Shown here piece by piece: positions 5,095-46,612 of a stretch of DNA of 60,846 nucleotides. This stretch comes from a virus. The stretch is taken from the IMG/VR virus record IMGVR_UViG_3300020473_002126, positions 1 through 60,846 of that record; one strand, written 5' to 3'. Positions within the stretch are counted from its first letter, which is position 1; each line of letters starts with the position of its first letter. The notes beneath the pieces are model-generated. The model had not been told where the DNA came from. It made no database searches and worked only from the letters and a program-made list of their open reading frames with translations. The position numbers and the translations under genes are program-made.

Positions 5095-5305
5095 TTTCCT
5101 GCTTTTACAAGGCAGTTTTATTGCCATAAAATTTACTATGGCTAGTACTATAAAAAAATCAACAATGACGAAGGAGCACAAAAGATATCTTGCGGCTTCT
5201 AAAAATAGTAGTACAAAAGTTAAGACTAATCATGAAGAAGTTAAAAAACTTAACGAAGAGATTAGTTATATAGACGAAGACATTAATAATTCAGAGGAGA
5301 ATAGT

Positions 5306-6349
5306 ATGTCACAAGATTTTGACGATTTTGATTTTGTGAGTCATTTTGATGAGAATGCCGAGGTGGGTAGCGATGAGTTACTACCAGAAAACGAAGCACC
5401 CAGTTCATTAAACTGCGCTTTTATCGGACTAGGTGGAGGAGGTGGAAAACTTGCTAAATCTTTTCTTGATCTAGGTTTTAACAAGACTATTTTAGTAAAC
5501 ACGACTGAAAAAGATCAACCTAGCGGTGTAGATCCAGATCATTTTTTGCTGATTCCAGGTGCTGACGGTGTTGGTAAAAATGTTGAATTAGGCGAAGGCG
5601 TGCTTTCTGAGAACTCTACACTTGTCGAAGATGCGCTCAGAACAAAAATAGGTAAGGTTGACTGGATTTTCGTATGCTCAGGTGGCGGAGGCGGAACAGG
5701 CAGTTCAGCAGGCGTCCTTCATGAATCTTTTGAGCGCCATTTAAAATCAGTCCAGGGTGAAGGCAGGGTTGTTTATATTATATCAACACCGACTGCTCAA
5801 GAACTTCTAAACCCTACAATCAAGCAGAATTCAAAACACCTGAGCGACGCTGTTAGTAGTCATCCACACATCGTCTTAGATAACGAGAAGCAATTAAAGT
5901 TACTAAGAGGAAAAGTAGGGATGCTCGACATGTATCCGGCTGCGAACAAAGCGTTTGCCAAGATGCTGTCCCAGGTTTTAAAGCTTTCTAGTGAGTCTTC
6001 AACTGTTCAGACTTTTGACTCAAAAGATCTTGAAGCATGTCTAAAATCACCTGGGCGAATCTTTGTAGGAACGTCTATCGTTAGAGACGCATCTCAAAGA
6101 GGGTTGGGTTCAATTATTTTTCAAAGTTGCCTAAAAGGCTCACCTTGCCAGTCCGTCAATGGAAAAGGATCTGCTGGTGCTTTGGTTTTAGTCGCACCTT
6201 CCAATATTTTAGATGACGCTGCTATTAGCAATCACCTAGAATCAGCGATCTCTTATGTGGGCGGCAGAGTAGACACACTATTTTCAGGTGTCTATGTAAA
6301 TGACAATGCGCCTGGACTAATTTCAATTATGATGGTTTGCGGTTTATAA
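5306..6349 (+). CDS. FtsZ/tubulin-family GTPase
   Basis: A 347-residue protein from ATG 5306, chosen because AGAGGAGA (5293-5300) stands five bases before it. The same frame is open back to ATG 5138, which lacks a ribosome binding site but would add 56 charged residues. An acidic N-terminal tail precedes a Rossmann GTPase core. The first nucleotide loop is GLGGGGGKLAKS (about 40) and the tubulin signature is GGGGGTGSS (about 126). The T7-loop equivalent FDSKDLEAC keeps both Asp residues of FtsZ's NxDFAD motif, so hydrolysis across a filament interface is plausible. The C-terminal activation domain is present (AGALVLVAPSN to the end). The glycine loop is nearer FtsZ than PhuZ. It may form filaments that position phage DNA or capsids, or disturb host division. 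Confidence 0.85.
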   Translation: MSQDFDDFDFVSHFDENAEVGSDELLPENEAPSSLNCAFIGLGGGGGKLAKSFLDLGFNKTILVNTTEKDQPSGVDPDHFLLIPGADGVGKNVELGEGVLSENSTLVEDALRTKIGKVDWIFVCSGGGGGTGSSAGVLHESFERHLKSVQGEGRVVYIISTPTAQELLNPTIKQNSKHLSDAVSSHPHIVLDNEKQLKLLRGKVGMLDMYPAANKAFAKMLSQVLKLSSESSTVQTFDSKDLEACLKSPGRIFVGTSIVRDASQRGLGSIIFQSCLKGSPCQSVNGKGSAGALVLVAPSNILDDAAISNHLESAISYVGGRVDTLFSGVYVNDNAPGLISIMMVCGL

Positions 6350-11700: not shown

Positions 11701-12357
11701 GGCACTGCTGAAGCTGGTAGCGTAGGTGATACATTCAAGCTAAAAGAAGGAACAGGTATTGGGTTGTCTATCAATACAGGCACCGATACAGTTACAATAT
11801 CAGCAAATATTGGAACGGCTTCCCCAGCGTTTACAGATAGAGGGTTCCAAACAGGACATGTTGAAAAACATCGCGGTACATCAATTATTTGTACAAGCTC
11901 AATTGCTTTTGTAAGTGGTAATCACATTGGTGGTGTATCTCCAGTGGCTTACGATGCTTCTAATGTAGGAACCGATACTTTCTTCTTTGTCTCTGGTTCT
12001 ATTGGTGGCAAGGCAGCTTCAGCAGCTAATAGACATGGTGTGGCCACATTTGGTGGTGATGCAGTAATAAGCGGAACCTTCTACACAGGTGGAAATACTG
12101 TTCTTGGAGATGCAACTTCTGACTCTGTCACCTTTAATGGAAGAGTTGGTTCACACATACTTCCATCTGCTGATAGTACATATAACTTAGGAAGCAATTC
12201 GCTAAGATTTGCCAACGTTTATACTGGAGACCTTCATTTGAGGAATGATAGAGGTAACTGGACTATTTACGAAGAACCGGACATGTTGGTTGTTGTTAAT
12301 AACTTAACAGGAAAGAAATATAAGATGGGACTTACCCCGCTAGAGGATGATGAATAA
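8716..12357 (+). CDS. large tail fibre protein with repeated beta modules
   Basis: A 1213-residue protein, low in Cys and rich in Gly, Ser, Asn and Asp, as expected of trimeric phage fibres. Two repeat types are visible. One contains VVNEDG, then DFRVE, then LFVDxxxxxV, about 30 residues long, and occurs at least six times between residues 376 and 920. The other contains an FFVSGS strand and FGGDxVVSGTLY, at about 198, 536, 960 and 1115. The C-terminus has STYNLGSNSLRFANVYTG, a motif common in fibres that carry or precede S74 domains. No S74 chaperone is present in this gene; the next one has it. The gene overlaps the next through TAATG. It probably forms the shaft, or is the partner fibre, of the host-recognition apparatus. 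Confidence 0.85.
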   Translation: MSNPKDFLAKQIRTNTLIVSGGNWAIGSDGSSPGLLIYSASLAPDFVGGRPDKLFSGSGNFGMVQIYQTAAKINGGLAVSNTHGGNVRIAFDQEMDINPHVATQRVTKAHVLLGSGSNAVPFITFVSGSSSSPGGTTQRMFLLSQSIGGTHPHTSSNTAANNPYNMLDVNFWVSGSKGSKRSSGTPGSHVPTYCGTAVFGGDLVVSGTLYAERQVIEVDVSQSGSLFVSGSAEIGGGLIVNEHGGSVATQWRNRESNNFLYFNPAGDSNNGRIGIGNNDWSASTVPAAPLHIAEENSATNSVVDQLFLQVKSSGTPAAGLGSNTTWTVETVAGNHIIAGLEVITTDAGSGTEDGAMVFKTMTAGQTRTEKFRIGANETVVNEGNINHDFRVEGNSASATNLFLVDASLDRVIVQGATGDDTELFKVIGNDDAGSGQEADFLTISPTKVVINEDGQTVDFRVEGKNRAHALFVNSQVASGFDQVLILSGGGSGGSTDNDDAAGTDVAFYVSGSTSFGGGAGRTEPGTYGISLFGGDLHSSGNITADGRVGPWVDGGTFVYPYGTEHLVLGATTIAASDIILSATGSATFNNQSSANGDFRIKSQTDESMVFVDASGDVVGIGTDAPNGSAQLHVGNSGASSLASTVLYLENESASSADVKIWFGKNATVKHAIGLDDDDSDKLKIVLGGLLGASNKTLMDFPSAFGNAIVVNESGQDLDFRIESENDANLFVVDASTDSIGINVAAGSHGARLDILANDAGEKGLLVTSNPGSGLQGGDVAKFVSGSSEVFSIGGSDGDVVVNEAGADRDFRVETSGDDKAFVVDGGTNTVVVNEDGDGADFRVETAAEDEALFIDASANTIYINKGEEAVTTIIGSTNDEAIRIGAAGVIFNEDGHGTNDFRVESNNKPNALWVDSGRDYVAILTGSGPVIDNGKAGTDVCFFVSGSNDKDTAVRGVSVFGGDVVVSGTLYDGSGNAVTKNYGKMAVLDTGGSTEGTAEAGSVGDTFKLKEGTGIGLSINTGTDTVTISANIGTASPAFTDRGFQTGHVEKHRGTSIICTSSIAFVSGNHIGGVSPVAYDASNVGTDTFFFVSGSIGGKAASAANRHGVATFGGDAVISGTFYTGGNTVLGDATSDSVTFNGRVGSHILPSADSTYNLGSNSLRFANVYTGDLHLRNDRGNWTIYEEPDMLVVVNNLTGKKYKMGLTPLEDDE
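9844..11470 (+). repeat. degenerate tandem module encoding NEDG..DFRVE..LFVD
   Basis: Protein-level repeats within the first fibre gene start near 9844, 10053, 10836, 11107, 11195 and 11377, with a weaker copy near 10490. Each encodes a strand ending VVNE(D/S)G, a DFRVE strand, and an LFVDA strand. Two more copies lie in the next gene near 12964 and 13457. DNA identity is low, so duplication is old or the units are under selection to diverge. Confidence 0.75.
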
Positions 12358-15300
12358 TGGCTTTTATAGGATCACTAACTGTAACAGGATCTTCCACCAG
12401 CACTGTAAAGAAAGGTGAAGCTAGGTGGATCGCAGCAGGTAATGCAGGTTCGACCGGTAGTATAGGGCTCGTATTGCAGTCAGGAGACTACGGTAACGCT
12501 CAAGAAAGAGATGCTAGTGGAAGTATCGTTTTTGTAAGTAAAAACGGGGGATCTACTAATAGGGCAGGTGTTATAACTTCTCAACCCTACATAAATCAAG
12601 ATCTTATTTTTAGTAGCTCACAGTCACACTCAGACATTAGATTTACTGTAAATGATAATGGGTCAATGGTCAACCTCATGACTATCACTGCCGGTAGAGG
12701 TTCAGGCGGAATTACAGCTCATCGAAAACCTAAAGTTTATATCTCTGATACTGCGGGCGGGTACGATAGAACAGGAGGTAGTGCAGGAACGGGAGGCTCA
12801 TTTAAATACAGGTCCCAAGGCCTTTTGTCTGTTGTTACAGAAACTAATGTTCCTGCAGTTCAAATAATACATACTGGTACATCCACTGAGCCGGCGCTAG
12901 AAATCAGGAAGAAGCACAGTGGAGCTAATCAATATAGCTCACTATTTCAAGTAAAACATTCAGAAACCGTAGTTAATGAGACAGGTGATGCTTATAACTT
13001 CAGAATAGAATCAGATAATCAAGTTAACATGTTGTTAGTCGATGGGACTAATAATAGAGTCGGTATTGCAAACAATGCGCCGATGGCTTCATTAGACGTC
13101 AACGACGCAGGTGGAACATACTGCGTAGTCTTGAGAAACAACGATAGTGCAGGTCCTGCTGCGGGTTTTTCTGCTATTTCTATAGGAAGTACTGGACAAA
13201 CGGTGTTCACTGGATCAAGCGGTGTATATAAGTTTAAGGGTGGTGGCGCCAATGGCGAGGGCGACACAAAATTTCACATTATCGCAAAATCTACTGCAAA
13301 CACTCCAGGTGACGCGCAACTATGGTTCTCTGATGAAAACGACGCTGGTACAAAGACTGACAGAGTCTATGTGGGTTACGATAAAGGTGATGATCGCTTC
13401 GTGGCCGGAAAGAGTTCTACTTGGGGAGCTAATGAGTACATAGGGTTTAACGATTCTGAAGTTGTAATTAACGACGACAGTACAAGCGTTGATTTTAGAG
13501 TTGAGTCAAACAATCTTACTCACTTCTTGTTTTGTGATAACTCCACCAACAGGGTGGGTATAGCCACTTCCGCGCCGATGAATTCACTGCAAATCAATCA
13601 TGGTAATGCAGATGGCGGCGATGGCGCCATGATAGTCAGGGCTGACGTGACGACTGGGGAAGACGATTGGTTAGGGGGGATTGGTTTTGACTCACTTGAT
13701 GGCAATGTCCCTAGCTCTGTTAGAGAAGCCTCTGTATACATCGGCGCACGTGCTGCTGAAGCCCAGGGTGAAGGAGACAAGGGAGGTTACCTAGTCATAG
13801 GAACCTCAGCAATTGACGAAAATGACGATACAACTTCTACAGAGAGATTGAGAGTCGGGCCTGACGGTCTTGTCCAGGTTTCAGGTAGTTTAAGAATTCG
13901 AGATAGTTTGATTGTTGGAGACAACATTATTCGTGCATCTGACGGTGGTGCTACTATCACAATGGATACTAGTGATAATGTGACACTTGCCGGGAATTTG
14001 ACAATACCGCAATACATTTATCACGCTGCAGACACAGACACATATCGACAATTCGGCGTTAATACGCAGGTTTTTGTTGTAGGAGGGGCAGAGAGGCTTA
14101 GACTCAATTCAGACGGTACATCAATAGGTACTGTCACACCTGTTTCCAATCGAGAACTCGCAGTAGGTAGTACAAGTGGCGGCCGCGTTTCTCTCAGAGA
14201 CACAGGAGCCGCCTCAGAAACTAATTGTCTAAGCTATATTGATTTCTGGCAAGGGCAAAGTACAAAGCTACTTGGCTGGGTGGGTCATGCAGACACTGGG
14301 AACCAGCACCTGCAGATTTACAACAAGTCATCTTCTGGAAATCTCTACATGTCGTCATCCAATGATATCACGCTTGACCCCGATAACGGATTTATTCGAT
14401 ATAGGCGGAACGGGTACTGGGGTGGCGGGTTCAAGTCCGACGATCCGAGCACTACAGTAGCTAACAATGGGTTCATCGCTAGATATATCGGGTATACCGG
14501 GTATAACGGTGATACATACATCAACCTAGCAGGGGCGTCAGTTGGTGTCGGCACATCTCCCTATAATGGGAAATACATGCTAGCATCTCACTCGTTCGTT
14601 CATAGCGGCACCACGTATAGAGGAACGGATGGAGCCACAACTCCCACAAACACCTCCTACACCGGCTACAATCCACTCACCAGCACCAATCACGCAGGGA
14701 GCCCGTCGAGCACTTCACCAAGTGACAATACACACTTGGTGACGCCACTCTCTGCGAGATCGGTGCTGCTAAACAAGGGTAGCTCAGTAAAAGTCGACTT
14801 TCAGAATTCTGTAGCATTCCACGGATCTGACGATGAGTTTTACATATATTTTCAGTATATGATCTGGTCGAACAACGAGGAACCCAACGACGAGGCTTAT
14901 TTTTACTTCCTGAACTCCAGTGGCACTCACCTGACTGTCGATGGTACCTGGTATCTTGAAGTTGATAACGGATCCGGTGGATGGACTCAAATAATGTCCG
15001 ACGATGACACTACTTTTCTCTCTATCGACACCACGTTAGACAACTATAATGATTCAAAGTGGCGCTGGTATAGAATCAGGGGGACAAACGCTGCCGATAT
15101 TAATGCCCTTTGCGGAATGGAGTTTAAAAACTTCAACAACGTCTCCGGCGAGTACCAGCAGGTCGCCAATGTTACGATTAGATCATTGACAAATGATCGA
15201 AAATGGTATACAGTCCTGAGAGGCGCGCTCGGCAATGATGGCTACAGTCAAGGTGATAATTTTGGAAATGGCGGCCGAGACGGGGATGCTCTGATAGGTG

Positions 15301-15905
15301 ATGGAAATCAGTCTGCAGCTATTGATAATTCTACTGACTGGCTGATATACATTCCTAGAAATGGAAGGGCTCGTTTTACGCACAATTATTGGAATGGCTC
15401 CGCCGGGTCCGGTGCCGCTGGCTACACAACTTCATGGCTGACAATATGGAGAAAGGCAGACATATACGCTAATATAGGAATATACGATTCTACTCCTGAT
15501 TATCGTCTAGACGTTAACGGTGATATTAATACGAATGGTCAGCTTAGAGAGAGTGGAAGTACTAGTACATCTGATGAAAGATTAAAAGAAAATGTTGTTG
15601 ACATGGATCCTGTCCTTGACCAGGTTTTACAAATAAAACCTAGAAGATTTGACTGGAAAGAAGATGCCCGCGGGGGAAGACTAGCTCGTGAAGAGTATCG
15701 AACAGGAGACATGGGGTTTATTGCTCAAGAACTCGAAACAGTATTTCCTGAATATGGGCTTAATTTAGTAGACGTGGGTGATGATAAAGAAAAGACAAAA
15801 GGTGTAGCTTACGGAAAAATGGTAACTATACTTACAAAAGCTATTCAAGAATTAAATCAAAAAGTTGTAGATTTGCAAGCTGAAGTTGACAGCTTAAAGC
15901 AGTAG
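12357..15905 (+). CDS. tail fibre with C-terminal S74 intramolecular chaperone
   Basis: An 1182-residue protein. Residues 200-240 and 365-405 hold the same NE/DFRVE module as the upstream fibre, each followed by NRVGIA(N/T)xAPM, a typical fibre strand. Residues about 625-1040 are different: GC-richer, aromatic-rich and unrelated to the repeats, with several WxW-type strands (KWRWYRI, GGWTQIM); this is the likely receptor-binding part. The C-terminal 110 residues are a peptidase S74 chaperone (STSDERLKENV, RRFDWKED, DMGFIAQELE, then a long coiled tail). That domain trimerises and cleaves itself off using a Ser/Lys dyad; the Ser-Asp-Glu-Arg-Leu-Lys motif is intact. Cleavage would be just before SDERLKE at about residue 1075. 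Confidence 0.9.
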   Translation: MAFIGSLTVTGSSTSTVKKGEARWIAAGNAGSTGSIGLVLQSGDYGNAQERDASGSIVFVSKNGGSTNRAGVITSQPYINQDLIFSSSQSHSDIRFTVNDNGSMVNLMTITAGRGSGGITAHRKPKVYISDTAGGYDRTGGSAGTGGSFKYRSQGLLSVVTETNVPAVQIIHTGTSTEPALEIRKKHSGANQYSSLFQVKHSETVVNETGDAYNFRIESDNQVNMLLVDGTNNRVGIANNAPMASLDVNDAGGTYCVVLRNNDSAGPAAGFSAISIGSTGQTVFTGSSGVYKFKGGGANGEGDTKFHIIAKSTANTPGDAQLWFSDENDAGTKTDRVYVGYDKGDDRFVAGKSSTWGANEYIGFNDSEVVINDDSTSVDFRVESNNLTHFLFCDNSTNRVGIATSAPMNSLQINHGNADGGDGAMIVRADVTTGEDDWLGGIGFDSLDGNVPSSVREASVYIGARAAEAQGEGDKGGYLVIGTSAIDENDDTTSTERLRVGPDGLVQVSGSLRIRDSLIVGDNIIRASDGGATITMDTSDNVTLAGNLTIPQYIYHAADTDTYRQFGVNTQVFVVGGAERLRLNSDGTSIGTVTPVSNRELAVGSTSGGRVSLRDTGAASETNCLSYIDFWQGQSTKLLGWVGHADTGNQHLQIYNKSSSGNLYMSSSNDITLDPDNGFIRYRRNGYWGGGFKSDDPSTTVANNGFIARYIGYTGYNGDTYINLAGASVGVGTSPYNGKYMLASHSFVHSGTTYRGTDGATTPTNTSYTGYNPLTSTNHAGSPSSTSPSDNTHLVTPLSARSVLLNKGSSVKVDFQNSVAFHGSDDEFYIYFQYMIWSNNEEPNDEAYFYFLNSSGTHLTVDGTWYLEVDNGSGGWTQIMSDDDTTFLSIDTTLDNYNDSKWRWYRIRGTNAADINALCGMEFKNFNNVSGEYQQVANVTIRSLTNDRKWYTVLRGALGNDGYSQGDNFGNGGRDGDALIGDGNQSAAIDNSTDWLIYIPRNGRARFTHNYWNGSAGSGAAGYTTSWLTIWRKADIYANIGIYDSTPDYRLDVNGDINTNGQLRESGSTSTSDERLKENVVDMDPVLDQVLQIKPRRFDWKEDARGGRLAREEYRTGDMGFIAQELETVFPEYGLNLVDVGDDKEKTKGVAYGKMVTILTKAIQELNQKVVDLQAEVDSLKQ

Positions 15906-25251: not shown

Positions 25252-26568
25252 ATGTCAACAAAAGATAAAATAAAAGAAATAATGAGCCGCTTCCAGACTT
25301 CTGATAGCTCTAGAAAAAATGGGCCGGCAACTTATCTTGGCAATACACCAGATATCTTCAAGGCTTACGAGACAAAAAACCCTGATGATCTCCCAATACC
25401 TCAGTGCGTTCAATTTGAAATTACAAACTTCTGTACAACTGGGTGCAGAATGTGCTTCCGATGGACATGGTTAAAACAGCGAGACTATGATGAAACCGCA
25501 GAACTAACTGTTGAAAGACAAATAGAGTTGTTTAAAGAACTGGCTGATTTAGGAGTAAAAACTTTTTTGTGGACAGGCGGCGAACCTGTTTCCCACCCAG
25601 AGTTTGTCAGGTTAATTAAAGCAGCACACGGTTTTGGCGTAGAAGTCGGTGTATTGAGTAACGGTGTAGGAATAGATAGAAAAATAGCAGACGCAATGGT
25701 TCAATATGGTTCATGGGTTCGAATATCGCAAGATGATGTAAAGACAGACTTTGAGAAAAAGAATGTGAGAACTGTTTTAGAAGCACCGTCTTATGGAAAG
25801 AATCACGGCGATATTTTTGAAGAACTTGACAAGTCTATAGGAAATCTAAGAAAAGCAATGGAAGAGCACCCAGATTCTAACTTTTCAATAGGTTTAGCAT
25901 TCACTATTCAGAAAAACAATGTAAGAAGCATCCCGGAGATGATAGCATACGCAGAAGAAAACAAAATTAAAGCTTCAATGAAATTAGCTCACGGTGAAGG
26001 CGGCAAGTACTTGTGCACAAAAGAAGATCTAGACTGGATAAAGAATGATCTTCTTACAAATGATGACTTAGTTAATTCTGAATATTCAAACTTAAACTAT
26101 TTGAAAGACTACTTTTTAAATCTGTTAGACGAACAAGACATTATTGAAGGACTACCTACAAGAAAATATTATGACAACAATGATATCACATGCTTCACAA
26201 CAGAGTTGTTTTCTTTGATTGATGCGTTCGGGCGTACTTACGTTTGCTGTCACTTGTATGACGATAATGGCACGTTTAAATCTGATCAAAGAGACAAATA
26301 TAACATTGGCGATGTGACTACTAATAGTTTTGAGTCAGTCTGGAGAAGCAATGCTTATCAAAAAATAAGAGAAGAGCTTTCTCCAATCGATGTCTGTAAT
26401 ATGCATTGTTCCAACTGTACTAGACATTGGGTTCCAAACACTGTTTTAACGTCCTTACACAAAGAAGTATTTACACCATTGAAAGAAGAACTAGGCTTAG
26501 AAGAAGGACTGAAAGAATATAAAAAAGCTGCACTAGATCTTTCAGTGAATACACCTGTATGGCACTAG
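25252..26568 (+). CDS. radical SAM enzyme with SPASM-like C-terminal cysteines
   Basis: A 438-residue protein. ITNFCTTGCRMCF at about residue 60 is the CxxxCxxC cluster site that holds the 4Fe-4S for SAM cleavage. FLWTGGEPVSHPEF is the GGEP SAM-binding strand. Near the C-terminus YVCCHLYDD and CNMHCSNCTRHW supply the extra cysteines of a SPASM/Twitch-type auxiliary cluster. Within a glycan island it may catalyse radical deoxygenation, epimerisation or C-C bond chemistry on a nucleotide sugar, but the substrate cannot be deduced. The start is ATG 25252, with AGGGG upstream. Confidence 0.88.
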   Translation: MSTKDKIKEIMSRFQTSDSSRKNGPATYLGNTPDIFKAYETKNPDDLPIPQCVQFEITNFCTTGCRMCFRWTWLKQRDYDETAELTVERQIELFKELADLGVKTFLWTGGEPVSHPEFVRLIKAAHGFGVEVGVLSNGVGIDRKIADAMVQYGSWVRISQDDVKTDFEKKNVRTVLEAPSYGKNHGDIFEELDKSIGNLRKAMEEHPDSNFSIGLAFTIQKNNVRSIPEMIAYAEENKIKASMKLAHGEGGKYLCTKEDLDWIKNDLLTNDDLVNSEYSNLNYLKDYFLNLLDEQDIIEGLPTRKYYDNNDITCFTTELFSLIDAFGRTYVCCHLYDDNGTFKSDQRDKYNIGDVTTNSFESVWRSNAYQKIREELSPIDVCNMHCSNCTRHWVPNTVLTSLHKEVFTPLKEELGLEEGLKEYKKAALDLSVNTPVWH

Positions 26569-33872: not shown

Positions 33873-34610
33873 GTGTTGCTACGCGAATTTATAAGACAAA
33901 TAATCTTAGAGAGTGAGTCCTGTAGATCTCCAAAAGTAATTTTCATGGCAGGCGGCCCGGGATCAGGTAAGTCTCATGTAATAAATCAGCTGGGCTTAAG
34001 ACAGAGAATGCGAGTAATAAATCCAGATGATCAGTATGAAGCAGCAATGAAAGCCGAATGCATTCCGATGGACAGGGCCTCTTTGATGGATGAATATAAA
34101 CCACTGAAAGACGAATACTTGTCAGCCGAAGAGTCCGGAGATTTAGAGGCGATGAGTAGAATTCGTCCCGAGTATGAACGATTAAGGGACATATTAAGCA
34201 GAAACATGACACTATTTACTCAAGCCAGGTCTCAAGCTAAGAAAGACGCAGCCGCATGCTGCTTGAATAAAGTTGATTACATTGTAGATGGTACTGGAGG
34301 CCAACTTAGAGAGATTAGTCAACAGGTTGAAAAAGCGAAAGAAGCCGGCTATGATTTTGCAATGATTTATGTTCACGTTCCCTTAGAAGAATCTCAAAGA
34401 AGAAACTATGAGCGATCAAAGCAACCAGAACCAGGTAGGACCTTGACTACTAAGACTGTTAAGCGATCGTGGGAAGCTGTCAATAGAAACAAACAAGCTT
34501 ATGAAGAAATGTTTGGTAATAACTTTTTTTATGTCGTCAATACACGTGAAGAATCTGAAGAATCTATAAACAGTGTTCGGTCAAACTTAAGTAGATTTTT
34601 AGACACCTGA
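33873..34610 (+). CDS. P-loop kinase, zeta-toxin/AAA_33-like
   Basis: A 245-residue protein starting at GTG 33873 with AGAGGTGG a few bases upstream. VIFMAGGPGSGKSHVINQ is an intact Walker A. RVINPDDQYEAAM and VDYIVDGTGGQLREISQQVE match the acceptor and second acidic strand of zeta-toxin and polynucleotide kinase-type enzymes. YVHVPLEESQRRNYERS is the arginine lid. Zeta enzymes phosphorylate UDP-GlcNAc, so a nucleotide-sugar substrate would suit the location. No epsilon antitoxin is nearby, so a toxin role is unlikely. Confidence 0.75.
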   Translation: MLLREFIRQIILESESCRSPKVIFMAGGPGSGKSHVINQLGLRQRMRVINPDDQYEAAMKAECIPMDRASLMDEYKPLKDEYLSAEESGDLEAMSRIRPEYERLRDILSRNMTLFTQARSQAKKDAAACCLNKVDYIVDGTGGQLREISQQVEKAKEAGYDFAMIYVHVPLEESQRRNYERSKQPEPGRTLTTKTVKRSWEAVNRNKQAYEEMFGNNFFYVVNTREESEESINSVRSNLSRFLDT

Positions 34611-39245: not shown

Positions 39246-40409
39246 GTGAAACAAGTAGTAGTAAGAGGGCCACTAATAACTTCATCTGGTTACGGAGAGC
39301 ATTCCAGGCAGGTTTTTAGATGGGCAAAGTCTAAAAAGGATTGGAACGTTTCTGCACAACTAACACCGTGGGGAAACACTACGTGGTTGATAAATCCAGA
39401 CTATATGAACGGACTAGTTGGGGAGATAATGCAGTGCTCAGGACCGATTGAGCGATCTAATTCTGACATATCTTTTCAAATTCAACTTCCAAATGAATGG
39501 GATCCTTTGCTTGCTAGATTTAATGTAGGCGTAACAGCTGCTGTTGAGACAGATGTATGTCATCCAGAATGGGTCACAGCATGTAATAAGATGGACTATG
39601 TTATTGTCCCTTCTGAGCATACAAAGCAGACAATACTAAATTCAGGTGAAGTCCAAGTCCCAATCGAAGTAATACCTGAAGCTTATTTTGATGAACTAGC
39701 TTATGAAAAGATTAAAGAAATAGACTTGAATTTAAAGACCGACTTTAATTTTCTAATGATTGGTACTTTGACAGGCAATAACCCGTGGAATGATAGAAAA
39801 AATACGTACCAGACTATCAAGTGGTTTTGTGAAACATTTAAAGACAACCCAAATGTCGGCCTAGTGATCAAAGCAAGCTCAGGAAGGGCAACCACACTTG
39901 ATAGAATGTTGACAAAAAGGGCACTAACTCAAGTGTTGTCAGAAGTAAGAGAAGGAGAGTACCCAAGGGTAAATCTTTTGCATGGATTAATGTCAGGCGA
40001 TGAAATGTCGGCAGTATATCGAGAACCCTCGATCAAAGCTTACATTGGGTTGACAAGAGGCGAAGGGTACGGATTGCCAATTTTAGAAGCTGCAACATCA
40101 GCGATTCCAGTAATTGCTACTAATTGGTCGGGCCACCTAGATTTTATGAAACTGGGTAAGTTTATTTCTGTTGATTATAGGCTTCAAGAAATACATGAGA
40201 CACGAATTGATAATCAAATCTTTATGGAAAAGTCTCGTTGGGCAGAACCATCAGAAGAGCATTTTAAGAGAAGACTTAAGAAGTTTTATGAAAAACCTGA
40301 ACCCCCACAAGAATGGGCAAAAGACCTATCAGCAAAATTAAGAGAGTCTCATAGTCTTGAAAATATTTTTTCAATTTATGATAGTGCCTGGGATAGAAAT
40401 GCAAAATGA
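39246..40409 (+). CDS. GT4-like glycosyltransferase
   Basis: A 387-residue GT-B protein starting at GTG 39246 directly after the previous stop. VRGPLITSSGYGEHSRQVF is the N-terminal Gly loop. FNFLMIGTLTGNNPWNDRKN opens the donor domain, and YIGLTRGEGYGLPILEAAT is the EGxGxxxxE motif with GHLDF further on. It overlaps the next gene by ATGA. The acceptor is unknown; virion or host glycan is likely. Confidence 0.88.
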   Translation: MKQVVVRGPLITSSGYGEHSRQVFRWAKSKKDWNVSAQLTPWGNTTWLINPDYMNGLVGEIMQCSGPIERSNSDISFQIQLPNEWDPLLARFNVGVTAAVETDVCHPEWVTACNKMDYVIVPSEHTKQTILNSGEVQVPIEVIPEAYFDELAYEKIKEIDLNLKTDFNFLMIGTLTGNNPWNDRKNTYQTIKWFCETFKDNPNVGLVIKASSGRATTLDRMLTKRALTQVLSEVREGEYPRVNLLHGLMSGDEMSAVYREPSIKAYIGLTRGEGYGLPILEAATSAIPVIATNWSGHLDFMKLGKFISVDYRLQEIHETRIDNQIFMEKSRWAEPSEEHFKRRLKKFYEKPEPPQEWAKDLSAKLRESHSLENIFSIYDSAWDRNAK

Positions 40410-40714
40410 TTTCTCCTTGGATAATTAGCACAGTTGTCTTATCCCTGATTTCTTCTGTGTCTCTTTATTTTACTTTTAAATTTGCGCGCATAATTTTGCG
40501 TATTGAAGATGCTGTTGAAGCATCATTAGACACGTTAGATGAAAAGTATGTCGCCATAAGCGAGGTATTAGAAACCCCTTTGTTCTACAACTCACCTGAA
40601 GTAAGGAGAGTTTTGGTAGAACTAGAGGATGCTAGAAACTCTGTGCTTTATGTTGCTAATAAAATGACATTACTAGAGACGGAAGATGACAACGTCACTG
40701 CTGAAGGAGAATGA
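40406..40714 (+). CDS. small membrane-anchored protein, unknown function
   Basis: A 102-residue protein with one N-terminal transmembrane helix (about residues 4-28) followed by a cytoplasmic or periplasmic helical domain. It contains FYNSPEVRRVLVELEDARNS, a short motif I associate with proteins next to gp55-like genes in marine myoviruses. The tail is acidic. It overlaps the GT4 gene by ATGA. No function can be assigned. Confidence 0.55.
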   Translation: MISPWIISTVVLSLISSVSLYFTFKFARIILRIEDAVEASLDTLDEKYVAISEVLETPLFYNSPEVRRVLVELEDARNSVLYVANKMTLLETEDDNVTAEGE

Positions 40715-40717
40715 TAA

Positions 40718-41452
40718 TTGGCAACAAGAAAAGTTAGAAGAAAGAGAACTAAAAAGAGATCATCAGTCAAACTGTATTTTAATCAAGACACACAAGAATC
40801 AATAATAGCTTATCAAAATGAAGATACGTTATCAAAAAAACAAGACATATATGTAACGGGAATACTTCCAGCTTTTGACAAGTTGGTTGAAAACTTAATT
40901 TTTATTCATGGTTTTACAAAGTCGTTTGGAGCTGGTTCTTACGAGATGCTGAAGGCAGACTGTGTTTCTTTTTTATACGAGTCAATTCACAAATGGGACC
41001 CTGCCAAAGGTAGTAAAGCTTTTTCCTATTTTAATGTAGTGGCAAAGAACTGGCTAATAATAAAAACTAAACAGCGCCAAAAACTAAATAAGCGTCATGT
41101 AAGCATTGACAATACAGCGCTGGGAATTCGAGACAAGCAAGCTATAGAGAATCATCAGATTGCTCCAGCCCAAGATGAAGTCATGATAAGTGCTGAGCGG
41201 TCTGAGGCGATCATCGCTATGCTTTATGAAATTAAAAACAGGGTAAGTAGCGACAATGAAAACGCTTGTATCGATGCAATTATTACTATTTTTGAAAGTG
41301 TTGATCAGCTTGACTTTTTAAACAAAAGAGCTTTGTTTGTCTACATGAGAGATTTGTCAAGTTTAAATCCAAAACAACTTTCAATAGCAATGAGTTCTAT
41401 ACGAAAGCATTATAAACAGCTAGCCGGCGCAGACGCGTTTGATATTTTGTGA
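40718..41452 (+). CDS. gp55-like late-transcription sigma factor
   Basis: A 244-residue protein starting at TTG 40718 after GGAGAAT. The basic N-terminus (RKVRRKRTKKRS) is followed by a sigma region 2-like block. This has helices with ADCVSFLYESIHKWDPAKGS (about 88-107) and SYFNVVAKNWLIIKTKQ, which match T4 gp55 and its relatives that melt late promoters. The C-terminal part is longer than T4 gp55 (185 residues) and helical. It stands before the baseplate genes, so it probably drives their late expression with the small protein encoded next. Confidence 0.82.
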   Translation: MATRKVRRKRTKKRSSVKLYFNQDTQESIIAYQNEDTLSKKQDIYVTGILPAFDKLVENLIFIHGFTKSFGAGSYEMLKADCVSFLYESIHKWDPAKGSKAFSYFNVVAKNWLIIKTKQRQKLNKRHVSIDNTALGIRDKQAIENHQIAPAQDEVMISAERSEAIIAMLYEIKNRVSSDNENACIDAIITIFESVDQLDFLNKRALFVYMRDLSSLNPKQLSIAMSSIRKHYKQLAGADAFDIL

Positions 41453-41459
41453 GGTAGAC

Positions 41460-41825
41460 ATGTCTAAGACTTTGAACAAGGCAATGAAAAAAGCTAGTGA
41501 AGTTTCAAAAAAAGTAGATAAGTTTTCTGATTTGCTTGATTCTATAGAGACTTTAGAAGATAAAAGAAAACATTTGTGGAAAGAAATTTATGAGAATGCA
41601 CTTGTAGATCGTGAAAACGCCGGAATGCTCTTTACTGACATATATCAGGAAATGCAAGGCAACGCCATGCAGCACACTGCCTTGGGGCCCACAGCTGCAA
41701 AATACCTAGAAAGGATGTGCAAATCAAACGATCAGATACTTAGACTGGCAGAGTTGGTAGCAAAGGCTGAAGAAGCCAGTAGCACAATTTCGCCAGACGA
41801 TATTTTTAATGAGATAAGTGGATAA
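41460..41825 (+). CDS. small acidic helical protein, possible gp33-like late co-activator
   Basis: A 121-residue protein from ATG 41460 with GAGGT upstream; the longer frame from 41439 overlaps the sigma gene. It is all-helical and charged (LDSIETLEDKRKHLWKEIYE, TAAKYLERMCKSNDQIL) and ends in an acidic, hydrophobic tail (SPDDIFNEISG). T4 gp33 (112 residues) is similarly small and links sigma gp55 to the sliding clamp. The tail could be a clamp-binding peptide, though no clear match exists. Position after gp55 is the main support. Confidence 0.55.
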   Translation: MSKTLNKAMKKASEVSKKVDKFSDLLDSIETLEDKRKHLWKEIYENALVDRENAGMLFTDIYQEMQGNAMQHTALGPTAAKYLERMCKSNDQILRLAELVAKAEEASSTISPDDIFNEISG

Positions 41826-43279
41826 TGCCCGTAAGTTTAAAGACCCAGTTTCCGCCCGTCAATGCAATACTTGCGCAAAGGTTTGACTCAGACGAAGTAG
41901 AGATGTTTTACCCTATTTTTCCAAGTCATCTCATGATGCCTTTAAAAGTAGGGGAAGTAGTTTGGGTCTTGTATCCTGATCAATCATTTTCAGCTGGTGA
42001 TGATAGTGCTAGCACAATGATGGGAACAAATGCAGAAAGATTGCAAACAGAAGGATCGGATAATAACTACGGTGATGTGCTGTCTTCCGCCCGAGGTGAT
42101 ACAACAGACGGCGCTGTATTTCAGAAAGCTGTAGTTCACCACATTTACTTGACACATGATTATGTTTTAGCACACTCAGAATTCCCAGCCGATCACATAG
42201 ATTATAACGGGGGTTACTGGTTGTCTCGAGTTGCAGGAACTCGTCTAAGTGAAGATACAAACTATACGTGTTATGGCCGAGACTTTGATGAACGAGCTTT
42301 TGCCGTCGTCGAAGATAGATCACCAAGTGATGTGTTAGCAGACGGGGATTATTTCCCAGGAACACCGAACAAGGTGCAAACATCAACGACATCTGATGAA
42401 GATGTTGATCCAAGTGGAAATTATATTGTAGGAGACAATCCTGAAGTTTTTTCACAACTAAAACAGAAGAATGATTTGGAAATGACTTTTGAAGCGACAC
42501 CTCGCATATCAAAACACCCGGGTGACTTTATCATTCAAGGGTCGAATAACACAGCGATTATTTTGGGCGAGAATCCTTCGGGGATAGAGGATGATAGCCT
42601 TGTGTCCGGCGGTATTGATATCGTCGCAGGAAGAGGTCTTCATCCTGATTCTTTTAATTTAATGTCAAAAATTGCAAATGATGATGCAAGATTTGAGTCT
42701 GACAAATGTCACGAACTGTCTGAGCAAGAACCGAACTTAAATGAAGGGACAATGGATGTATTTCATGACTTTTCAAGAATAGTTGTTTCTGCTAACGCAA
42801 TGCCTGATGTTTTATTTTGTGACCCAGAAACAACAGGTGCAAGTGAAAATATAACATTTTCATCCACAGTTAGTGCTGCGATGGGAAGAGATTTAAAGCC
42901 TTTTTCCGAAGATGATGCAGAAACAGCACTTCAACAGATCGCTGCTGAAATAACAGGGCCCACAATTGCTATGAAGTCAGATCATATCAGAATAGTAGGT
43001 AGAGAGACCCTGAGGCTAATGGTGGAATCACCTGACGGCCCTGCATCAGCTCCTGAAATAATACTTCATAAAGACGGGAACATATTTATCAAACCCGGCG
43101 TCAATGGTCAGGTCTACATAGGCGACGGTCCTGATGCCGGAGAACCAGGTACTGCTGTTTTTGCTGATATGTTAACTTATCCAGATGACATGGAAGGTGG
43201 TACAGGCTTCGCTGCCGAGATGGCAGTAGCCGCCAAGATTCCAACGAGGCACTCACCAAAAGTCAAAGTGAAGATATGA
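41825..43279 (+). CDS. gp5-like baseplate hub/spike protein without lysozyme
   Basis: A 484-residue protein whose ATG overlaps the previous TAA. The N-terminus fits an OB-fold (AILAQRFDSDEVEMFYPIFP, then LKVGEVVWVLYPD), as in T4 gp5 and gpV. No lysozyme motif is visible in the middle. The C-terminal third has short alternating strands (HIRIVGRETLRLMVES, EIILHKDGNIFIKPG, QVYIGDG) like the beta-helix of a spike. It would form the trimeric membrane-piercing needle. It is followed by the hydrophobic protein and then gp25. Confidence 0.75.
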   Translation: MPVSLKTQFPPVNAILAQRFDSDEVEMFYPIFPSHLMMPLKVGEVVWVLYPDQSFSAGDDSASTMMGTNAERLQTEGSDNNYGDVLSSARGDTTDGAVFQKAVVHHIYLTHDYVLAHSEFPADHIDYNGGYWLSRVAGTRLSEDTNYTCYGRDFDERAFAVVEDRSPSDVLADGDYFPGTPNKVQTSTTSDEDVDPSGNYIVGDNPEVFSQLKQKNDLEMTFEATPRISKHPGDFIIQGSNNTAIILGENPSGIEDDSLVSGGIDIVAGRGLHPDSFNLMSKIANDDARFESDKCHELSEQEPNLNEGTMDVFHDFSRIVVSANAMPDVLFCDPETTGASENITFSSTVSAAMGRDLKPFSEDDAETALQQIAAEITGPTIAMKSDHIRIVGRETLRLMVESPDGPASAPEIILHKDGNIFIKPGVNGQVYIGDGPDAGEPGTAVFADMLTYPDDMEGGTGFAAEMAVAAKIPTRHSPKVKVKI

Positions 43280-43280
43280 G

Positions 43281-44216
43281 ATGGCAACTTTCTACGGTTT
43301 ATTTAGAGGCACACTAGAAGAGCTAATAAAATTAATAATACAACTTGTCTTAGCCGTTCTGGGTAAAATTGTAGAAGTAATACTTTTTGTTATCGAAATG
43401 TTATTTGCTATTATTATGCAAATATTAGAAGCTATTTTTGGCCCGATTATCAAGTTTATTATGTTTATCGCGGGCCTAATAATCATGGTTTTGACAAAAA
43501 TTGCAAAGGTGCCTATTTGGCTGTTGGGCCAGATTGCAAAGTTGATGGAAATGATTAAGCAAATAATAGAATTGCTTGCTAAGATTGTCCGGTTACCTTT
43601 TGAAATATTAGCGATTATATTGCAAAAAATTGCTGAGGCAATTGCTTATATTTTATCACTACTTGCGATGTTGTTTGCTGATCTTTTAGCACTTTTAATA
43701 TTCTTGATAAACTTCATCATAAGCCTCTTGATTGAAATAATCATGGCGATACTAGAACCAATCATTAAAAAAATAATTGAGATTTTGCTGGCAGCACTAG
43801 TACCACCAATGTTTGTCATTAAGATGATAATGTGGGTAATTGAAGCAATAAAGGATATAATTGCAGCTATTATGAGCCTGTTAGGTATCCCACCTTTCTT
43901 AGAAATAATAATGGCAATAATTGCAGCAATACTTGAAGGCGTCATGGAGATAGTGATGTCTGTTGTTCAAGTATTGGTAAAAGTATTTTCGTATATCATG
44001 GATCTAATAGAAGACATCATGGCTATTGTAGCCCACATCATAATGGCAATCATTAAGTTTATTATGGGACTCTTAGCAGGCCTAGATATAATAGCAGTTA
44101 TACTGGCACCGATAATAGGCGTTATTATGATCATAGGTGCAATTTTGGCAACATTTACACCAACCCAAGAGCTTACAATACCGATTCCTGTCCTTGATCC
44201 GTTGATGGGAGGCTAA
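43281..44216 (+). CDS. extremely hydrophobic protein in the baseplate operon, unknown
   Basis: A 311-residue protein made almost wholly of Ile, Leu, Met, Ala, Val and Phe with isolated Lys and Glu. It reads as a chain of about a dozen 18-25-residue helices broken by Pro or Gly (IFGPIIKFIMF, KVPIWLLGQ, LVPPMFVIKM, GIPPFLEIIM). Many have charged residues at i, i+3/4 or i+7, which makes them amphipathic. It has no signal peptide-like boundary and few polar loops. Its place between gp5- and gp25-like genes suggests a virion protein. It could be a tape-measure-like, central-hub or ejected pore protein. Nothing in the sequence decides between these. Confidence 0.7.
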   Translation: MATFYGLFRGTLEELIKLIIQLVLAVLGKIVEVILFVIEMLFAIIMQILEAIFGPIIKFIMFIAGLIIMVLTKIAKVPIWLLGQIAKLMEMIKQIIELLAKIVRLPFEILAIILQKIAEAIAYILSLLAMLFADLLALLIFLINFIISLLIEIIMAILEPIIKKIIEILLAALVPPMFVIKMIMWVIEAIKDIIAAIMSLLGIPPFLEIIMAIIAAILEGVMEIVMSVVQVLVKVFSYIMDLIEDIMAIVAHIIMAIIKFIMGLLAGLDIIAVILAPIIGVIMIIGAILATFTPTQELTIPIPVLDPLMGG

Positions 44217-44272: not shown

Positions 44273-44755
44273 TTGGAATTTAACTTTAAAAACTCAGGCA
44301 AATCAGTCTTAGACGTCTTTGACGAAACTAAAAAAGCTCTAGAAGATAAAAAGAAAGTCCCTTACGGTATAATGACGCCTCTTCGTCATGGTAGAGAACG
44401 CTCTGGAATATTCGAAATGAATTTTGATTTAGGGGATCAAATTGCTGATAATCTTAGAAATCTAGTTCAGACTAACCACGGGGAACGACTAGGTCACTTT
44501 GATTTTGGTGCCAACTTAAGACCCTTGTCTCTAGAAGTAATGGGACACGAAAGATTTGAAACTGAAGCCATGTCAAGAATCGGTAAAGCAGTTTCTAAAT
44601 ACCTGTCTTTTGTAAGACTTACGACAATGTCAATCCAGCGAGTCCCAGAGACAGAACAGAATTTGCCACAAGTAGTGATCACTCTAGAATATTCAGTTCC
44701 TGCTGCTAGTAGTCGAAAAAGAAGACTAGACGTCATAGTTAATTTAGCAGGTTAG
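44273..44755 (+). CDS. gp25-like baseplate wedge protein
   Basis: A 160-residue protein starting at TTG 44273 with GGAGGG nine bases upstream. It has the GPW/gp25 core: FDLGDQIADNLRNLVQTNHG then ERLGHFDFGANLRPLSLE, and a late VVITLEYSV. T4 gp25 is 132 residues; the extra length is at the N-terminus. gp25 with gp6 builds the wedge that triggers sheath contraction and starts sheath polymerisation. The order gp25-gp6 is retained. Confidence 0.88.
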   Translation: MEFNFKNSGKSVLDVFDETKKALEDKKKVPYGIMTPLRHGRERSGIFEMNFDLGDQIADNLRNLVQTNHGERLGHFDFGANLRPLSLEVMGHERFETEAMSRIGKAVSKYLSFVRLTTMSIQRVPETEQNLPQVVITLEYSVPAASSRKRRLDVIVNLAG

Positions 44756-44764
44756 GTATTTAAA

Positions 44765-46612
44765 ATGAGCAAGAATATTAAAAAGCAGTTAAAAAAGAAG
44801 AGAAATGTTTCATATCTAAACAAAGATTTTGATGGATTTAGAGCTGACTTATTAGAGTATGCAAGAACTTTTTTCCCTGATCAGATTCAAGACTTCTCTG
44901 AAGCATCAATGGGAGGCATGTTTTTAGATTTAGCCGCGTATGTGGGCGATGTGATGTCATTTTATTTAGATCATCAGTTTCAAGAATTGAATATCGAAAC
45001 TGCTGTTGAAAGAAAAAATATCGAACGTCACTTAAGGTCTGCAGGCGTCGAGGGTGCAGGGGCTTCACCCGCTGTGGTAGATGTCAACTTCTCTGTGACA
45101 GTTCCGGCTGTTTATTCTGAGGGCCAGTACATACCAGATAGAAGTGCATGCCCAACAATCAGACAGAACACTTCCGTAACATCTGCAGGCGGAATACTCT
45201 TTCACCTAACAGAAGATTTAGACTTTTCAGCACTTGATGAGTTCGACGAATTTGTGGCAAAATACAGGATAAAGAACGTAAACTCTAGTGGTAATCCTTC
45301 AAAATTCCAGCTGACACTCACTGGACTTTGTGTAAGCGGCAAAGTATCAGACAAAGAAATCAAAATAGGTGATTCATTTGTACCGTTTAGAAAGATAGTT
45401 TTGCCCGCTCAAAATGTAACTGATGTAATGTCAGTAATTGATTCTGAGGGGAACAGATATTACGAAGTTCAGTCCCTAACACAAGATACTGTTTTCAGAT
45501 CTGTATTGAATGGCAATCTAGCTGATTCGAACTTAGTCCCTGAGACCCTAGAGCTAATACCTGCTCCATATCGATATGTCAAAAGGCATAATTTAAATAC
45601 TGGAAAGACAGAACTTCAATTTGGTAGTGGCCTAGCTGAATCTTTAGATGATGATGTATTGCCTGACCCTTCGTCTCTTTCAATTCCACTTTATGGTAAA
45701 AAAGTTTTTTCTAGATTTTCAATTGATCCAAATTCACTTCTAAAAACTAAGACAATGGGTGTAGCGCCTACCAATACAACATTAAAAATAACTTACAGGC
45801 ATGGTGGAGGACTAAATCATAACGTGGGAATCAATTCTTTGAGAAGTGTCTCAAAACTTTCTATATCTTTTCCTCATAATCCAGATCCTACTGTAGCAGC
45901 AACAGTGAGAGGAAGCGTCACAACCACCAACGTAGAATCAGCCTCCGGAGGCGCCCCCGGCCAGTCAATCGATGATTTAAAGGCTGCTGTGGTTTCATAT
46001 AGAAACTCTCAATCAAGAATAGTTACAAAACAAGATCTTTTAGCGAGAATCTATACTATGCCAAGTAGTTTTGGGAGGGTTTTCCGGGCAGGCCTTTCAG
46101 GCAACCCAAACAACCCGTTAGCTTCGATTGTCTATATTATAAGTCAGGACAGTAGAGGTCGTCTCGTTACTGCACCCGATGCATTGAAAGAAAACTTGTC
46201 AAAGTATTTAAATGAATACAGGTTAGTATCTGACGCTGTTGACATTCTCGACGCACCAGTTGTTAATGTAAAAGTAGTCGTCGAAGTATTGACAGACTCC
46301 ACGCAAAATCCAGACACAATTTCAAATGTAATAAGACAAAAATTAGTCAAGTTTTTTAATATTAAGAATTTTCAATTGGATCAACCAATTATTAAGTCTG
46401 AGATTTTAAACCTAGTGGCAAGTACGGAGGGTGTAATGTCTGTTGTGGATTGTAAGCTATTAAACATCTCCGGAGAGATTTCAAAGAGAAAATACTCTAA
46501 TGTTTCTCATAATATAAATCTAAACACCATTAAAGGTATAACATTTCCTCCAAAGGGTGGAATTTTTGAGATGCGTCATCCCAATGATGATATCGTAATT
46601 ATAGCAGGATAG
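44765..46612 (+). CDS. gp6-like baseplate wedge protein (J-like)
   Basis: A 615-residue protein, close to T4 gp6 (660). The N-terminal YLNKDFDGFRADLLEYARTF is typical. GGMFLDLAAYVGDVMSFYLD (about residue 50) is the strongly conserved wedge signature. SYRNSQSRIVTKQDLLARIY (about 413) and the C-terminal block with FFNIKNFQLDQPIIKSEI then LVASTEGVMSV match gpJ/gp6. It follows gp25 by 9 bases. Confidence 0.9.
   Translation: MSKNIKKQLKKKRNVSYLNKDFDGFRADLLEYARTFFPDQIQDFSEASMGGMFLDLAAYVGDVMSFYLDHQFQELNIETAVERKNIERHLRSAGVEGAGASPAVVDVNFSVTVPAVYSEGQYIPDRSACPTIRQNTSVTSAGGILFHLTEDLDFSALDEFDEFVAKYRIKNVNSSGNPSKFQLTLTGLCVSGKVSDKEIKIGDSFVPFRKIVLPAQNVTDVMSVIDSEGNRYYEVQSLTQDTVFRSVLNGNLADSNLVPETLELIPAPYRYVKRHNLNTGKTELQFGSGLAESLDDDVLPDPSSLSIPLYGKKVFSRFSIDPNSLLKTKTMGVAPTNTTLKITYRHGGGLNHNVGINSLRSVSKLSISFPHNPDPTVAATVRGSVTTTNVESASGGAPGQSIDDLKAAVVSYRNSQSRIVTKQDLLARIYTMPSSFGRVFRAGLSGNPNNPLASIVYIISQDSRGRLVTAPDALKENLSKYLNEYRLVSDAVDILDAPVVNVKVVVEVLTDSTQNPDTISNVIRQKLVKFFNIKNFQLDQPIIKSEILNLVASTEGVMSVVDCKLLNISGEISKRKYSNVSHNINLNTIKGITFPPKGGIFEMRHPNDDIVIIAG

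Follow-up and report, generated by a model that had tools for sequence, protein, structure and literature searches.

A super-hydrophobic protein encoded beside a putative spike gene as a candidate exchangeable tail-tip component of marine T4-like phages

Comparison of the gene at 43281-44216 with its relatives inclines us, with modest confidence, to regard its 311-aa product as an exchangeable, spike-coupled component of the tail tip, which would move into the cytoplasmic membrane to open or line a passage for the DNA. The stretch analyzed, hereafter the window, is a 60.8-kb IMG/VR fragment (60,846 nucleotides) of a contractile-tail (T4-like) marine phage. The interval between the putative spike gene and the gp25-like gene, in which the 311-aa protein is encoded, is referred to as the slot. 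The following features of the window were used.

40718-41452 (+): conserved protein, resembling T4 gp55 on visual inspection only; upstream limit of the conserved block (synteny)
41454-41825 (+): conserved protein of small size (~121-130 aa), encoded upstream of the spike gene and found with most slot types (synteny)
41825-43279 (+): putative central spike/hub protein, 484 aa (motifs, 36 homologues)
43022-43279 (+): last ~85 residues of the putative spike, covarying with the slot protein in relatives (sequence comparison)
43091-43123 (+): motif KPGVNGQVYIG, of the type PG..G.[IV][KY][LI]G, in the spike C-terminus; occurs beside hydrophobic slot proteins
43281-44216 (+): super-hydrophobic slot protein, type A (ORF, relatives L001, L004, and L083, composition, helical periodicity, purifying selection)
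44273-44755 (+): gp25-like protein of the baseplate wedge, bordering the slot downstream (PF04965, E = 0.003; phrog_43, E = 0.016; conserved order)
44765-46612 (+): gp6-like baseplate wedge protein (phrog_219, E = 1.6e-20)

The ORF runs from the ATG at 43281 to the stop at 44216 and its product has a GRAVY of 1.74. The residues I, L, A, M, V, F, and W make up 70.4% of the chain, isoleucine alone accounting for 24%; 41 residues are charged (18 E, 15 K, 6 D, and 2 R; net charge -7) and 13 are prolines. Mean Kyte-Doolittle hydropathy was at least 1.6 in 68% of all 19-residue windows, with a maximum of 3.03. These values, together with conservation in three relatives, bear out the preliminary description of a nearly all-hydrophobic protein. 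A spectral peak was obtained at 100 degrees, with a power of 154 compared with 42 ± 4.6 in shuffled sequences. All four type-A members gave a power of 144-159 at this angle (shuffles: 39-45, s.d. 5-6), a level reached by 0 of 100 shuffles. The chain is therefore predicted to be a series of amphipathic helices with narrow polar stripes. The earlier estimate of around a dozen helices is plausible; the number itself was not readable from the AlphaFold model of the type-A protein (mean pLDDT 43), which was not used for fold searches.

Relatives of the 311-aa protein in IMG/VR were limited to three (L001, L004, and L083; 65-85% identity), in which length, position, and the start and end sequences of the protein are kept. 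All three are encoded in the slot between putative spike and gp25-like genes, so that homologues at the same locus, by which the preliminary description proposed to check itself, were indeed found. Between the window and the 85%-identical L001 gene, differences at the three codon positions numbered 63/16/175, with dN = 0.11 and saturated dS, indicating strong purifying selection. No match was obtained in Pfam up to E = 1, to PAAR families included, and no homologue was found among 50,697 phage records or when genome contigs were searched with the 311-aa protein.

The same gene order, consisting of the conserved block, the putative spike gene, the gene for the hydrophobic protein, and the gp25-like and gp6-like genes, was found in all four type-A members. 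Weak by itself, with its PF04965 match below the curated cut-off, the gp25-like identity is backed by the adjoining gp6-like gene. The protein encoded at 40718-41452 had no PHROG match. Upstream of the block, 40406-40714 (+) encodes a 102-aa single-helix membrane protein with a weak holin PHROG match (E = 0.007), found beside many slot types. In the putative spike, a stretch resembling an OB fold (FYPFFSPHL..PVKPGE.VWV) and a C-terminus rich in beta structure were noted. Profile comparison of its 36 homologues with Pfam, PHROG, and PDB gave nothing significant, and HHalign yielded 0.1% against T4 gp5 and 7% against the Mel-JY01/LR756508 counterpart. Foldseek searches of PDB and BFVD with an AlphaFold model (pLDDT 64) gave no significant match, and entries for VgrG1, VgrS, and the gp5/Vgr OB fold were confined to insignificant rows; the PVC central spike 9qgm aligned with Z = 3.9 over 133 residues at 3.4 Å, which is below any safe level. 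Given the OB-like stretch and beta-rich C-terminus on the one hand and the lack of a profile or fold match on the other, the protein was labeled putative spike. The preliminary placement between gp5- and gp25-like genes thus held on the gp25-like side, whereas the gp5 identity found no backing from profiles, HHalign, or fold comparison. In T4, genes 5 and 6 enclose the PAAR spike-tip gene 5.4 and other small genes. The 311-aa protein is encoded in the equivalent interval, but no sequence relation was seen between it and gp5.4, which is a small soluble PAAR protein.

Several other genes of the window were recorded. Among them is a cytoskeletal protein, a 403-aa FtsZ/tubulin-like GTPase with a GGGGGTGS motif (5138-6349, +), which matched Tubulin in Pfam (E = 6e-4), FtsZ in PDB (E = 3e-8), and, weakly, a PhuZ PHROG. 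A MotA/TolQ/ExbB-like proton-channel protein (542-1069, +; PF01618, E = 2e-7) is followed by two small ORFs with membrane-anchored-looking products. At 12357-15905 (+), a 1182-aa fibre-like protein ends in an S74 endosialidase-type chaperone domain (PF13884, E = 5e-14). Amid the tail genes, ~20 kb (16137-36707) is occupied by sugar genes: glycosyltransferases, FkbM-like methyltransferases, NeuB (PF03102, E = 5e-69), a CMP-sugar synthetase (PF02348, E = 1e-25), and, by eye, a UDP-sugar dehydrogenase and an epimerase. This block includes a Radical SAM/SPASM protein at 25252-26568 (+; PF04055, E = 2e-19; PF13186, E = 4e-9). A Zeta-toxin-like kinase is encoded at 33873-34610 (+; PF06414, E = 1e-13).

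A gp6-like profile was used to find 80 syntenic contigs and to construct a tree. Gene order was kept across these loci; the content between the spike and gp25-like genes differed widely. Type A comprises the proteins of the window, L001, L004, and L083 (GRAVY 1.5-1.7). Type B proteins (305-438 aa; those of alignment A8 plus L045, L057, and L078, the latter three assigned by composition) begin with a polar N-terminal part that contains a DPT motif, are rich in proline in the middle, and have hydrophobic helices, with G.G.I as a C-terminal feature; those of L017 and L059 had no homologues among annotated phages. Three shorter hydrophobic proteins were grouped as class b. Other slots contain short polar proteins (74-212 aa) or fibre- or collagen-like proteins (L005, L062, and L063), and in L010, L025, and L074 the slot is empty. 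In the Microcystis phage isolate Mel-JY01, the slot encodes a GH19-type endolysin (phrog_181, E = 1e-32). This enzyme, which acts on peptidoglycan, is unrelated in sequence to the 311-aa protein but is located between the same putative spike and gp25-like genes; as the slot here holds an envelope-breaching enzyme, it supports a location at the tail tip or hub.

In the gp6 tree, type A formed one clade (100/99), and the type-B label required 9-10 changes. Type A and type B may be homologous: HHalign gave 92% and E = 6.5e-7 over 110 columns, in a comparison that is prone to composition effects, and the polar N-terminal domain of type B has no obvious counterpart in type A. A gp162 match of type B (8y6v, E = 0.023) was rejected as too weak. 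The slot protein of L068 (5418-7406, 663 aa), which had no significant Pfam match, contains a type-B-like stretch (IPKPPNLPSIPE) and a C-terminal part that is peptidase/amidase-like by eye; the spike of this locus bears the hydrophobic-type motif. The immuto slot encodes a 371-aa helical protein, the annotation of which as RecN is probably wrong. Mel-JY01 and immuto carry an extra small polar protein between the slot and the gp25-like gene (L084:13970-14500 and L085:14160-14579).

Exchange of the slot gene was found to extend into the adjoining end of the spike gene. L027 encodes a 160-aa polar slot protein, and its near-twin L032 a 438-aa type-B protein. Identity between their DNA was 83-100% in the upstream block and 81-89% over most of the spike gene, fell to 16-47% from L032:5300 to ~7099, and was again 78-93% from gp25 on, the replaced segment consisting of the last 450 bp of the spike gene and the slot gene only. 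At the protein level, identity was 85-90% for spike residues 1-300, 30% for residues 400-500, 28% for the slot protein, 88% for gp25, and 94% for gp6. The same exchange pattern was obtained for L009 and L017. When L009 and L027, both with a polar slot protein, were compared, the spike C-termini were 63-71% identical and the N-termini 44-49%. Similarly, the last 85 residues of the spikes of the window and L001 were 92% identical, compared with 54-62% elsewhere.

In the relatives, it is the last ~100-150 residues of the spike that covary with slot content. A C-terminal motif of the spike, PG..G.[IV][KY][LI]G, was present at 21/21 loci with a type A or B protein and at 1/27 loci with a polar or empty slot (48 loci), the pattern having been composed after viewing the sequences and relaxed once. 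With the stricter first pattern, the counts were 18/21 and 1/27 (Fisher, 3e-9). The class-b loci L039 and L054, for which the spike is known, lack the motif and were left out of the count; including them gives 21/23. Motif and slot type agreed in all seven phylogenetically independent pairs (sign test, p = 0.016). The twin comparisons are independent of the motif pattern. Taken together, these data point to a specific genetic pairing of the slot protein with the spike C-terminus, and the two may also be in physical contact. Joint exchange is expected if the slot protein has to fit the spike end, although it can also result from simple linkage of adjoining genes. According to the preliminary description, the protein may be loaded inside the tail tube or hub; it is the tail-tip or hub part of this proposal that gains indirect support, from the conserved slot, the Mel-JY01 endolysin, and the joint exchange with the spike end.

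We propose the following mechanism. The slot protein would fit the C-terminus of the central spike and form an exchangeable module with it. Upon sheath contraction, the spike would carry the slot protein to the host envelope and into the periplasm. There, its amphipathic, almost wholly hydrophobic helices could insert into the cytoplasmic membrane and open or line a passage for the DNA. We infer presence in virions, contact with the spike, and membrane insertion; the DNA channel is a hypothetical further step. In other phages, hydrophobic segments of the tape measure are thought to perform this DNA-passage task.

Known systems offer partial parallels. The diffocin tape measure CD1366 has five predicted transmembrane helices (residues 540-684), and its trimer was proposed to be a membrane pore (PMC10996793). 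Both cases involve tail-carried hydrophobic amphipathic helices, and a weak match of the 311-aa profile covers CD1366 residues 559-694; however, this match is compositional, and here the helices form a protein of their own, the gene of which adjoins that of the putative spike and is exchanged along with its end. In type VI secretion, prePAAR effectors that contain transmembrane parts are loaded next to the spike, with Eag chaperones shielding them (PMC7773334). Like these, the 311-aa protein is encoded beside a (putative) spike, is modular, and has hydrophobic segments that would be bound for a target membrane; in contrast, it has no PAAR match or toxin domain and is hydrophobic over almost its entire chain. 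No Eag-like chaperone gene was seen here. Podophage ejection proteins of the T7 gp14/gp15/gp16 type are virion proteins thought to build a trans-envelope DNA channel. They are capsid-core proteins of short-tailed phages, and no relation to the 311-aa protein was detected.

The main rival reading is that of a spike-coupled membrane protein with another role, such as membrane sealing or depolarizing, superinfection exclusion, or anchoring of the baseplate during assembly; we give it a minor though appreciable probability. It draws on the same cassette evidence (motif covariation and the L027/L032 swap), the hydrophobicity of the protein suits a membrane, and type VI secretion, which delivers spike-coupled effectors with transmembrane parts (PMC7773334), provides a parallel. 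Speaking against it, no toxin-like or immunity-like partner gene is present in the block, and the slot types, several of which are unrelated and which include a wall hydrolase, suggest entry rather than exclusion.

The very hydrophobic chain and the late gene block could also fit a holin or other late membrane protein outside the virion. No holin or other lysis family in PHROG or Pfam matched the 311-aa protein, and such a function would leave the position in the baseplate block and the joint exchange with the spike C-terminus unaccounted for. Moreover, the holin-like candidate at 40406-40714 is a separate, conserved membrane protein beside many slot types. The size and helix number of the 311-aa protein exceed those of usual holins, and holin identity is unlikely. 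We consider it equally improbable that the protein is structural filler buried inside the spike or hub, for instance as a trimeric helical core, without ever contacting a membrane. Helices with a strong 3.6-residue periodicity could pack by their hydrophobic faces in the lumen, but few residues are polar and the 68% of windows given above pass a transmembrane-like threshold, compared with none in the tape-measure-like protein of the type-B relative G002.

Least probable, by a little, is the alternative raised in the preliminary description, a tape measure; in this reading the protein, alone or in addition to another tape measure, would occupy the lumen of the tail tube. Weak matches of the 311-aa protein to tape measures were obtained (phrog_4200, E = 1.6e-5; FtbJ and the diffocin tape measure in PDB). 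However, reversed sequences also matched tape-measure families (phrog_5493, E = 1e-3; reversed L059 with phrog_4200, E = 2e-5), whereas a shuffled one did not, showing that the similarity reflects composition and helical period and not homology. In addition, a 311-aa tape measure would be short for a T4-like tail, and the gene lies in the interval between the putative spike and gp25-like genes, not after sheath, tube, and hub. No sheath gene was found in the 60.8-kb window, and the tape-measure position was tested in relatives. In G002, a sheath gene (90538-94023), tube, and hub are directly followed by a tape-measure-like 722-aa helical ORF (95791-97959), ~60 kb from the slot. This ORF had no PHROG match of its own, but its residues 47-398 are homologous (E = 1e-28) to a 1187-residue G007 protein that matches phrog_167 tape measures (E = 2e-15; as this profile matches all 14 control genomes too, weak matches were not relied on alone). 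The annotated tape measure of immuto has the same gene order as the 722-aa ORF. A search for further tape measures yielded only three more, short copies, on contigs without gp6. On account of this separate tape-measure-like gene and the reversed-sequence controls, the tape-measure alternative is contradicted; for type A, the reading is disfavoured by synteny with the type-B relative G002.

At the sheath position of G002, a 125-kb relative, a tandem gene pair (G002:C1 87308-94023) encodes very long sheath-like proteins of 1063 and 1161 aa, and G007 likewise has two long ORFs there.

Swapping of the slot protein together with the spike end thus suggests not a tape measure but a tail-tip part that would aid crossing of the host membrane. 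The G002 tape-measure-like protein (722 aa) is without any hydrophobic segment, its maximum 19-residue hydropathy being 0.90, and the slot of this phage is type B; maxima of 2.24, 2.37, and 1.73 were obtained for the tape measures of immuto, Mel-JY01, and G007, the slots of which are non-hydrophobic or mildly hydrophobic. This contrast, which sets one hydrophobic-slot phage (type B) against three, with G007 borderline and only mildly hydrophobic, is consistent with the slot protein having taken over the membrane-active part of the tape measure. Tentatively, and with doubt outweighing confidence, we suggest that this lineage moved membrane crossing from the tape measure to a DNA-channel-forming hydrophobic protein matched to the spike tip, swapped as a spike-tip-plus-pore cassette. 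Proteins that are carried by the tail and insert into membranes are a known kind; one devoted to this task and exchanged along with the end of the spike is, as far as could be found, a new variation on it.

To our knowledge, inner-membrane crossing by the DNA of contractile-tail phages is poorly known. A short conserved protein that is separate and pairs with the end of the spike would provide a handle on this step, and the natural swaps between L027 and L032 and between L009 and L017 pinpoint the exact segment concerned. In a large group of uncultured marine phages, the slot seemingly is an interchangeable attachment site at the tail tip; if the spike-tip-plus-pore cassette is real, its swaps would perhaps suit different host membranes.
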